Shown in pieces: positions 39,378 through 41,524 of a stretch of DNA of 64,000 bases. A program made the position numbers and the translations under genes. Origin of the DNA: Hydrogenovibrio sp. JE_KL2 (GTDB taxonomy: Bacteria; Pseudomonadota; Gammaproteobacteria; Thiomicrospirales; Thiomicrospiraceae). The notes beneath the pieces are model-generated. The model worked only from the letters and a program-made list of their open reading frames with translations. It did not search any database and was not told the origin of the DNA. The DNA is taken from assembly GCF_009296185.1 (NCBI RefSeq), contig NZ_WBJR01000002.1:1-64000 (forward strand), given 5' to 3'. The first letter of the stretch is position 1; every line of letters starts with the position of its first letter.

Positions 39378-40091
39378 CTAAACCGCTTTTGCCACAACCC
39401 AAGCTTCTACTTGTAGCTGGGGGTAAGCTTGCTTTAACATCTTTGCCAGTTGTTCAAGCGTGGCGCCCGTTGTCATTACATCGTCAATCAACACCACTTT
39501 TTGCATAGAAGCCAAAACCGCGTTATCCACTGAAAACGCCGCTTTCAAGTTGCGTTGCCTTTGTTGTTTATCCAATAACGTTTGATGAGGCGTATCCACC
39601 TGCCGAACCACACCGCTATCAATCAAAGGCACACCATAATGTTTCGACAGTCGTTTAGCCAGCTCATACGCCTGGTTGAAACCTCGCTCCACCAGCCGAT
39701 TCGGGTGCAAAGGGACAGCTATCAATGCATCGACTTGCTCAGCGGTGATTCTCTGCACCATCAATTCGGCAAGCACCCGAACCCAAAACAACTCTCCCTG
39801 ATATTTCAATCCATGAATCATTTGTTTGGCAGCATCATTGAACACCAGCAAGGCTTGGGTATGATCGACAAAATGAGGATGTGCCAAACAATCGCCACAG
39901 ACATGACTACTCGTACCTGGCGCGGCACAGCGAGGGCAGCCTTGCTGCCAAAAATCCAGTTCAGCTAACAGGACATCATCCAAATCCGCTGGTATTGACG
40001 ATAGCAGTGCATGGCTTCCCTGACCGACAGGCGGCAACAACCAGTTTTCAAGTCGCTGAATCCAAGAATGATTTTTATTGCTTTGCATCAT
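39378..40091 (-). CDS. comF: ComF/GntX family phosphoribosyltransferase-like protein
   Basis: About 237 aa from the ATG at 40089-40091; the next codon is also ATG, and the frame is open back into the MITE at 40193, but that part is not family-like. It has a Cys4 zinc-ribbon-like N-terminus (CPRCAAPGTSSHVCGDC), a central HGLKYQGE motif and a C-terminal PRPP-binding loop VVLIDDVMTTGATL. ComF homologues take part in DNA uptake in competent bacteria, and the gene is usually next to bioB in this lineage. Its promoter region carries the element at 40146. Confidence 0.9.
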   Translation of the reverse strand: MMQSNKNHSWIQRLENWLLPPVGQGSHALLSSIPADLDDVLLAELDFWQQGCPRCAAPGTSSHVCGDCLAHPHFVDHTQALLVFNDAAKQMIHGLKYQGELFWVRVLAELMVQRITAEQVDALIAVPLHPNRLVERGFNQAYELAKRLSKHYGVPLIDSGVVRQVDTPHQTLLDKQQRQRNLKAAFSVDNAVLASMQKVVLIDDVMTTGATLEQLAKMLKQAYPQLQVEAWVVAKAV

Positions 40092-40145
40092 TGCCTCTAA
40101 CCACCAAAACTGAATCAGTCTAGCCTTCGTTTCCGTTATAATAGA

Positions 40146-40406
40146 GGGCACCTCTAGTAACGCCAAATAAAATTCTGCGGGACTTAAAGGCAATTATTCT
40201 AGGCGCGACTCGCAGGTCTTAGCATTCTATGGCCAAGAGTCGTAACAACGAAAAATTAGCCTTTAAGCCCCGCCCGTAGGGGCTTAGCCAAGCTTGCCCG
40301 CTCTGTGTTGTGAACCTTTGCAAGGTCTAGACATTGCTGCAGCTTCACGCCTTGATCTGACAAACTTGGCGTTGCCAGAATTTATTTGGGGTTATTAGAG
40401 GTGCCC
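40146..40406. mobile_element. MITE-like element, 261 bp, with terminal inverted repeats and 4-bp target duplication
   Basis: The ends match as inverted repeats for about 33 bases (left GGGCACCTCTAGTAACGCC, right complement GGGCACCTCTAATAACCCC, both continuing AAATAAA...TTCTG). TAGA directly flanks both ends (40142-40145 and 40407-40410), a 4-bp target duplication. No transposase fits inside. Internally there is a strong hairpin (TAAGCCCC, 40264-40271, with GGGGCTTA, 40279-40286). The tip and the 4-bp duplication recall IS5-family elements, which is inference only. It sits in the divergent comF/bioB promoter region. Confidence 0.8.
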
Positions 40407-40498
40407 TAGATAGAATATCACGAAATAAACCTATCAAATCAATGGCGAAGCGCAATGAGTGCCTCTCTCCGTTGAGACTAAATGCGAAGGAAAAACCC

Positions 40499-41524
40499 AT
40501 GAGTCCTCAAGACATCGGTGCTATCCGTAACGATTGGACACTCGAAGAAATTCGAGACATTATGAACCAGCCTTTTAATGACCTGATTTTCCAGGCGCAA
40601 AGCGTTCATCGTATGCACTTTGACCCGAATGAAATTCAGACCAGCACATTGATCAACATCAAATCTGGTGGCTGCGCGGAAGATTGTGCTTACTGTCCAC
40701 AAAGCGCCCACCATGGAACGGATGTCGAAAAAGAGCGCATGATGGAAGTGCAAGAAGTCATCGAACAAGCACTTGCCGCCAAAGAATGTGGGGCAACGCG
40801 TCTATGCATGGGCGCCGCTTGGCGTAACCCGACCAAGCAGGATTTCCCGCGTGTATTGGAGATGGTGCGTGTTGTCAAAGCACTTGGACTGGAAACCTGT
40901 GTCACACTTGGTATGCTCGACGATGACCAAGTACAGCAATTGAAAGATGCCGGCTTGGATTACTACAACCACAATCTGGATACTTCTGAAGCCTTCTATC
41001 CAAAAATCATCACCACCCGTAACTACCAAGACCGCTTGAACACCATCGACAAAGTGCAAAAAGCCGGTATTAATGTCTGCTCCGGCGGCATTATCGGTAT
41101 GGGTGAAGAGCATAAAGACCGTGCAGAGCTATTGCGTACTTTTGCAACCATGGAACATCACCCGGATTCGGTACCAATCAACTTATTGGTCGCGGTGGAA
41201 GGGACACCTTTAGCGCACATGAAAGACCAAACGGATTCTTTCGAGTTCATCCGCGTTATCGCAACGGCTCGTATCGTCATGCCAAAAACCTATGTCCGCC
41301 TATCTGCGGGTCGTATGTCAATGACAGACGAAGCACAATCACTATGCTTCTTAGCTGGTGCCAACTCCATTTTCTACGGTGACAAACTGCTCACCACAGA
41401 AAACCCGGAAGCCAACCACGATATGCAATTGTTCGCCAAGTTGGGCATCCACATGCAGCAGAACGCAAAAGCTGAAATGACCGCAAAGAAAATGGCGGAA
41501 CAAATCACTGAGCTAACGGCTTAA
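40499..41524 (+). CDS. bioB: Biotin synthase
   Basis: Radical-SAM enzyme inserting sulfur into dethiobiotin. 341 aa from the ATG at 40499, which has an AAGGA ribosome site; the frame extends upstream to 40442 without family likeness. The radical-SAM motif is CAEDCAYC (Cys59, Cys63, Cys66). Further conserved segments are YYNHNLDTS and RLSAGR with the Arg ligand of the 2Fe-2S cluster. First gene of bioB-bioF-bioH-bioC; bioA and bioD are not in the window. Confidence 0.97.

Follow-up and report, generated by a model that had tools for sequence, protein, structure and literature searches.

Several described repeat systems resemble the element reported here. MITEs are usually regarded as reduced versions of a single insertion sequence (IS) whose interior does not matter, and within the IS5 group the usual target duplication is YTAR. 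REPINs, which are hairpin-forming intergenic repeats, depend on RAYT (Y1) enzymes and are not known to make target duplications. Transposition has been shown for MITEPsy1 of Pseudomonas syringae, a MITE with ends like those of the IS5-group ISPsy2 and with a 4-bp duplication of CTAG or YTAA; its description also names relatives in P. stutzeri and others (PMC3189936). The R-family repeats of P. fluorescens are described as hairpin-forming and intergenic, the ends of R0 and R2 being those of resident IS (PMC2718517). QMITE2 of Coxiella burnetii is non-coding, has inverted ends of 23-29 bp and gives a transcript predicted to be strongly folded (PMC10969869), and hairpin-forming MITEs are reported as abundant in the sulfur-oxidising gammaproteobacterium Thiomargarita (PMC4853749).

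The window, the whole stretch of 64,000 nucleotides analyzed here, contains a MITE of 261 bp (40146-40406) between a comF-like gene and bioBFHC (Table 1). The first-pass annotation, made from the sequence alone, had placed the element between a competence-type gene and the biotin operon, and profile searches bore this out: bioB, bioF, bioH and bioC (plus strand) all scored over the curated cut-offs, and the neighbor is ComF/GntX-like, its matches (TIGR00201, E 2.2e-28; GntX, E 4.6e-31) both lying under theirs. TAGA was found on both sides, as annotated. Among the relatives found, G010 is the closest (99% identical over a 133-aa BioB query). Its site is empty and reads TTATAATAGATAGAATATC, that is, the flanks seen in the window, with a single TAGA and without the element; the flanks are identical at 97/100 bases on the left and 91/95 on the right. 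This is the promoter-like TATAATA site that had been expected to remain once the element and one TAGA were removed. When 16 bioB upstream stretches were compared, out of 29 loci found, the element was present only in the window's own. By eye, a TATAAT lies 5' of bioB in all 16, the window's included; in one of them (L117) it is much farther from bioB than in the others. We conclude that the MITE insertion at bioB is real and recent. Since the left end of the element lies 3 bp past the TATAAT, a transcript from this box would begin at that end.

Table 1. Features of the MITE locus and its neighbors, in window positions
Feature	Position	Strand	Basis
comF/gntX-like phosphoribosyltransferase gene	39378..40091	-	reading frame and profile search
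TATAAT, probable -10 box of bioB; the target duplication starts with its last T	40137..40142	+	by eye
Left target duplication TAGA	40142..40145	.	read in sequence; single TAGA in G010
MITE, 261 bp, end type A (GGGCACCTC...)	40146..40406	+	inverted ends, copies, empty site
Left terminal inverted repeat	40146..40177	+	end alignment
Hairpin module 1	40173..40285	+	model R1, 112.9 bits (model built from this copy's own family)
Hairpin module 2, module 1 inverted	40265..40380	-	model R1, 37.7 bits, E 3.8e-7
Central mini-hairpin CCC-GTA-GGG between the modules (GNA loop)	40273..40281	+	read in sequence
Right terminal inverted repeat	40376..40406	-	end alignment
Right target duplication TAGA	40407..40410	.	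read in sequence; single TAGA in G010
bioB, first gene of bioB-bioF-bioH-bioC	40499..41524	+	ATG at 40499

The ends of the element are inverted repeats. In an ungapped alignment of 27 nt, 40145-40171 shows 93% complementarity to 40381-40407; when a gap is allowed, the ends reach 40145-40177 and 40376-40407 at 91%, so that the annotated length of about 33 bases was a fair description (91% over 32-33 nt). The end pattern, searched with up to 3 mismatches, was found in the window at just these two places (0.00 expected in shuffles). The longest stop-free stretch within the element has 41 codons, and a transposase is therefore not encoded, in line with the annotation that there was no room for one. 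The 4-bp duplications set the element apart from REPINs and from IS200-IS605-type elements, which have no target duplication and carry the ends of Y1 enzymes. With its inverted ends, TAGA duplication, empty site, lack of a transposase and dispersed copies, the element is indeed a MITE.

The dispersed copies had been named as something to look for. The genome of the window holds eight in total, this one included; six measure about 262 bp, and two are shorter, at 176 and 191 bp. The seven others are 76-80% identical to the 40146-40406 element where aligned, and the copies adjoin unrelated genes. The outcome that would have spoken against a MITE, namely, the same sequence in relatives with no empty site and no other copies, thus did not occur. 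One of the eight (L004) has ends of a different type, type B. Two further copies of the module, detected in the same genome with a model of its hairpin (L404, G000:C2:283382-283896; L403, G000:C12:34915-35430), have ends of another kind, palindromic TCGA followed by YACTGRATAA, which brings the end types in this one genome to at least three (A, B and TCGA-YACTGRATAA). By eye, L404 lies just upstream of a frame resembling dnaN. In the set of relatives, the element had matches in 15/55 genomes, its own included; in one of the 15 (G037), the match is 29 bases long and is not a copy. Many of the relatives' matches covered bases 26-240 of the query only, as the core is common to these copies and the ends are not. 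At another place in its genome, G010 carries a short copy, the second half of which shares 96% identity with the bioB-site element.

Automatic end-finding misplaced some boundaries, and counts resting on such ends are rough; for the count of end types, the copies were re-anchored to their ends, 13 unassignable rows were dropped and two same-place loci were omitted. Type A (GGGCACCTC) then comprised 34 rows, type B (GGAACCTCTGATTGAATC) 20 and type C (GGAAGYGCTGATTAAATC) 6; an exact 4-bp duplication was present in 20, 9 and 5 of these, respectively. The exact duplications fit YTAR in 0/20 cases for type A, 7/9 for type B and 5/5 for type C. On a tree of the core within the family, no fewer than 3 changes of end type are required (2 when A and B are taken by themselves), compared with 17 for the genome of origin; the clustering of the ends on this tree indicates that swapping is infrequent in the family. 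Forms shortened by the loss of one hairpin still have exact duplications (L007, L008, L047, L073, L076, L078 and L083), and an element may therefore be able to do without one of the two. Survival does not strictly require the full chassis, and movement perhaps does not either.

Bare ends were also observed. At G000:C9:205605-205631 (L156), a perfect 27-bp palindrome, GGAACCTCTGATTGAATCAGAGGTTCC, is flanked by TTAA and represents type-B ends alone, the core being absent; comparable hairpins made up of ends only are present in G034 (L157) and, with type-A ends, at G001:C1:2594770-2594819 (50 bp). Another genome, G019, has about 96 type-A ends, and several of its contigs start or stop inside a MITE copy; such copies probably break this assembly. 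A high-copy IS had been suspected there from the type-A ends at contig edges, and the stretches in question proved to be MITE copies. A MITE copy in G019 (G019:C78:11-311; L054, L166) abuts the open frame of a PF01609 transposase gene and may thus sit in or beside another transposon.

An IS with the same ends, the other partner that the annotation had suggested to look for, was found outside the genome of the window. G032 has an intact IS with a 350-aa transposase frame and the ends GGGAACCTCGAATAACCCC, which agree with the type-A pattern at 17/18 bases. Its transposase is 52% identical to that of an IS5-family IS (NF033581, E 4.4e-81) on a plasmid of Pandoraea faecigallinarum; one end of this IS has GGGCACCTCGAAAAACCGCC, and the other has a diverged copy of it. 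A relic of about 470 bp in G017 has type-A ends around a transposase fragment. For type B, G042 carries a 1186-bp IS in which 16/18 end bases are paired and which encodes an IS5-family transposase (NF033581, E 2e-108). The Pandoraea and G032 copies have no exact 4-bp duplication. In the genome of the window, a 15-contig draft, there were 0 matches to PF01609 (DDE_Tnp_1) and no homologue of the Pandoraea transposase. In 62 genomes of the family, no type-A end pair at IS length was seen among the matches listed, nor was one seen in the 30 loci examined. A search of plasmids with the whole element gave no match, and with a distant copy it gave one weak piece from Azotobacter.

When the element was compared with five IS stretches, consistent alignment was confined to the ends, and elsewhere only chance words of 9-10 bases were shared. 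The interior is therefore not a deletion remnant of any IS compared, as it would be in a MITE formed by internal deletion of its parent. Since the ends match IS5-family IS and the interior matches none of those compared, the element is a MITE that was probably moved in trans; judging from the ends on which it would act, an IS5-family transposase is the likely agent.

The interior was found to be the more conserved part. Model R1, which describes hairpin 1, also matches hairpin 2 on the opposite strand, and the core thus consists of one module present twice, inverted. The annotation that the element brings its own hairpin is borne out with two such modules. Folded as RNA together with a single base of flank on either side, the element has a predicted energy of -119.3 kcal/mol versus -77.2 in shuffles (z -9.06). 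For an alignment of the core, 35 full-length copies of the 43 listed were used. In the consensus fold, the ends close as one stem, on which a small central hairpin stands between hairpin 1 and hairpin 2. Compensatory double changes were detected in 58/84 pairs; column shuffles gave a mean of 38.6 and never reached this number in 500 trials, and partners slid by 1-3 columns gave 16-27. The covariation score was 0.451 versus 0.160 in column shuffles and 0.041-0.099 with slid partners, part of the covariation reflecting the shift between end types. Furthermore, 94.7% of the cells were paired versus 32.9-49.7% with slid partners.

This pairing does not favor one strand. Counts of G-U versus A-C cells are 70:18 for hairpin 1 and 24:35 for the end stem. 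For hairpin 2 they are 40:12, with one fixed U-G pair supplying 35 of the G-U cells. Moreover, the reverse strand folds better (-123.6 versus -103.6), as it does in 29/35 copies. Given the mixed ratios and the better folding of the reverse strand, there is no strand preference that would point to an RNA. In Rfam 15, 0 covariance-model matches were obtained at the locus up to E 1 and 0 at gathering thresholds in 20 of 29 loci from the class. At the tip of hairpin 2, two versions of unrelated sequence stand on the same base (alignment A2, columns 160-215; L090, L092, L093, L098 and the G014 copies), as if hairpin tips were exchanged too.

Between the hairpins, the sequence takes the form CCC-NNN-GGG. 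The loop bases match GNA, or TNC as the complement, in 27/29 class loci, in 63/69 scorable genome-contig loci (11 more were not scorable) and, as GNA, in 28/35 family copies. The chance expectation for GNA or TNC is 1 in 8, and binomial values calculated from it are overstated because the copies are related. TNC accounts for 10/29 class loci, even though the model was trained mostly on GAA loops. The bases of a GNA loop correspond, on the other strand, to the RNA tetraloop UNCG. In DNA, GNA triloops are described as extraordinarily stable mini-hairpins, among them the "ultra-stable GAA triloop" (PMC11101458, citing Yoshizawa 1997). A triloop of this kind in DNA and a UNCG tetraloop in RNA both suggest a single-stranded folded form, be it DNA or RNA.

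The module is not restricted to the genus. R1 matched 59/274 genomes sampled evenly across the class, in 47 families as counted from the list of matches, the number of matches per genome being an "at least" value in many of the 59. Of the 46/398 genomes matched in a sample of the phylum, 27 are members of the class; the others, 18 of family f198 and 1 of family f199, lie outside it. The 18 f198 genomes belong to another class, and some carry several copies. An exact 27-base motif of the core was present, among the matches listed, in many Pseudomonas, in Stutzerimonas, Thiohalomonas, Thiotrichaceae and Nitrosomonas, and in one Acinetobacter. Matches were also seen in an Aquificaceae MAG (MAG 28; L246, L266, L269, L278, L280 and L306), possibly on misbinned gammaproteobacterial contigs.

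In 19/29 class loci, the module occurs as a two-hairpin chassis, with copies on both strands that overlap by about 16-20 bases; as these loci were found by the core model or the motif, the apparent conservation is inflated. Inverted ends were placed by script, with rough boundaries, around 27/29 class loci, 21 of them 240-275 bp apart, and end-finding on 80 genome-contig loci left 22 without ends. By eye, the ends of the class loci fall into roughly eight unrelated kinds: GGAACCTCTGAT, GGGCACCTC, GTACTCCTTCAAGG, CTAGTGTCCTGTC, ATACCCAAGCC, GTACAGCGACC, GGTGGTCGAACAACC and GTACCCCAACAATC. Named Pseudomonas copies add another kind, CTAG followed by GGTCTGTTGACG, which matched 19 plasmid records; no IS partner was established in three of these (H7, H20 and H23). 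For the ends CTAG-TACTCC and CTAG-TGTCC, no IS partner was found on plasmids or at the ends of PF01609 genes in 11 genomes. On sequence evidence, then, the module turns up under many different ends, both across the class and in one family that belongs to another class, and the copies make up a class-wide family of MITEs with a common folded core and differing ends. The picture of a plain MITE is thus too small for this locus: its interior is a conserved structured module that reaches far beyond the genus.

The explanation that we favor, and consider quite probable as a whole, is that of an IS5-mobilised MITE in which a two-hairpin core is conserved under varied ends and kept for its single-strand fold. 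An IS5-type transposase would recognise the ends in trans and move the element. A single strand, either lagging-strand DNA or a transcript, would fold so that the ends form one stem with two hairpins, holding the presumably very stable GNA/UNCG loop at the center, and this fold would help the element to be mobilised or to survive. The ends would be the replaceable part, fitting the element to whichever IS5-type transposase is available. Several observations speak against this explanation: the type-A duplications depart from the YTAR usual in the IS5 group, no partner transposase was detected in the draft genome of the window, the Pandoraea and G032 IS copies lack an exact 4-bp duplication, one-hairpin forms retain exact duplications, the pairing has no strand preference, no matching IS was found for the other end types tried, and end swaps are rare in the family. 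That the module is kept because its single-strand fold aids mobilisation or survival is, taken by itself, about evenly balanced. A broader version, in which a class-wide mobile element is defined by its core with the GNA/UNCG loop as keystone and rides successive IS5-type transposases by exchanging its terminal repeats, falls somewhat short of probable; under it, the exchange of the repeats would let the core outlive each transposase that it parasitises.

The conserved pairing could instead be that of an ordinary IS5-type MITE whose core is old baggage, the pairing being upheld by template switching between the arms during replication. Template switching is described as yielding compensatory changes without selection, and the element, quasi-palindromic at every level, offers a setting for such arm homogenisation (PMC8794818). 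The pairing without strand preference, the persistence of one-hairpin forms and the extension of paired changes into the end stem all agree with this account. However, template switching leaves the GNA/TNC loop unexplained, both in the 29 class loci and in the 69 scorable ones. It also does not account for the unpaired AAGGC and AAC, which hardly vary among 51 module matches at 29 loci (a figure biased upward, since the matches were picked by the model), nor for the spread over 47 families under unrelated ends. We therefore regard the old-baggage account as possible but on the improbable side.

Within the reading of an IS5-mobilised MITE with a conserved core, the insertion might in addition act on its neighbors. 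It could be a functional switch that alters bioB, by a structured leader and a weak terminator-like site, and comF, by a new -35-like hexamer in the left end. The position 3 bp past the TATAAT is consistent with such a role, as are a sigma-70-like site facing comF (TTGGCG-17-TATTAT, 9/12) and two terminator-like sites in the element, one per strand, with neither promoter-like nor terminator-like sites at the empty site of G010. On the bioB side, the transcript would begin at the left end of the element and carry all of it as a predicted folded leader, for which we calculated -132.1 kcal/mol over 382 nt versus -20.0 over 116 nt in G010. Against a switch, the counts are near chance (promoter-like, 1 versus 0.9 expected; terminator-like, 2 versus 0.6), and these scans are therefore not taken as evidence of an effect on expression. 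Moreover, the ribosome-binding region of bioB lies 3' of the element, its position relative to the ATG unchanged. A regulatory switch is thus rather doubtful. The comF frame is open upstream into the element (40092-40193), with a TTG at 40193, so that the insertion might, in principle, lengthen the comF product by 34 residues at its N terminus. The genome of the window and G010, a close pair with and without the element at bioB, constitute a natural experiment.

A structured RNA gene or cis-regulatory bioB leader with repeat-like ends would account for the strong fold, the covariation and the place in the likely bioB leader, but it is very improbable, and such an RNA or a riboswitch is ruled out as the origin by the empty site in G010 and in the other 14 upstream stretches from relatives, by the copies beside unrelated genes, by the missing Rfam matches at the locus and in the 20 class loci, and by the absence of strand preference; a later adopted RNA role is possible.

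The two-hairpin core, conserved under varied ends, reverses the usual reading of a MITE, with conservation in the interior and variation in the ends. Should selection act on the core, it would be a structural partner in transposition by IS5-type enzymes. In addition, model R1 picks out unannotated repeats that amount to thousands of bases in many genomes. Searches of the open-access literature (subscription journals and ISfinder were outside their scope) returned no description of a MITE family with a shared core, and no open-access paper searched prints any of six short motifs taken from the element or from related copies.

REPINs share the hairpins and intergenic location but differ in their enzyme and in the absence of target duplications. 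IS5-family IS of the type NF033581 (transpos_IS5_4) have the type-A or type-B ends and the 4-bp duplication in common with the element, whereas the interior is not common to the element and the five IS stretches compared. MITEPsy1 is similar in its IS5-group ends and duplication, but at 100 bp and with the ends GGAAGGTCTGAAAAAGCC it is set apart by length and ends (PMC3189936), and this length is too short for the two-hairpin chassis. R0 and R2 of P. fluorescens, likewise tied to resident IS by their ends, are given as 89 and 110 bp (PMC2718517). The MITEs of Thiomargarita differ, by their description, in having a 10-bp direct plus a 19-bp inverted repeat, or TATAG ends (PMC4853749). QMITE2, similar in its folded transcript and inverted ends, is described with duplications of 7-9 bp and a core of 113-145 bp, and that description does not report one core under several end types (PMC10969869), which is the arrangement that distinguishes the element at bioB and its relatives.
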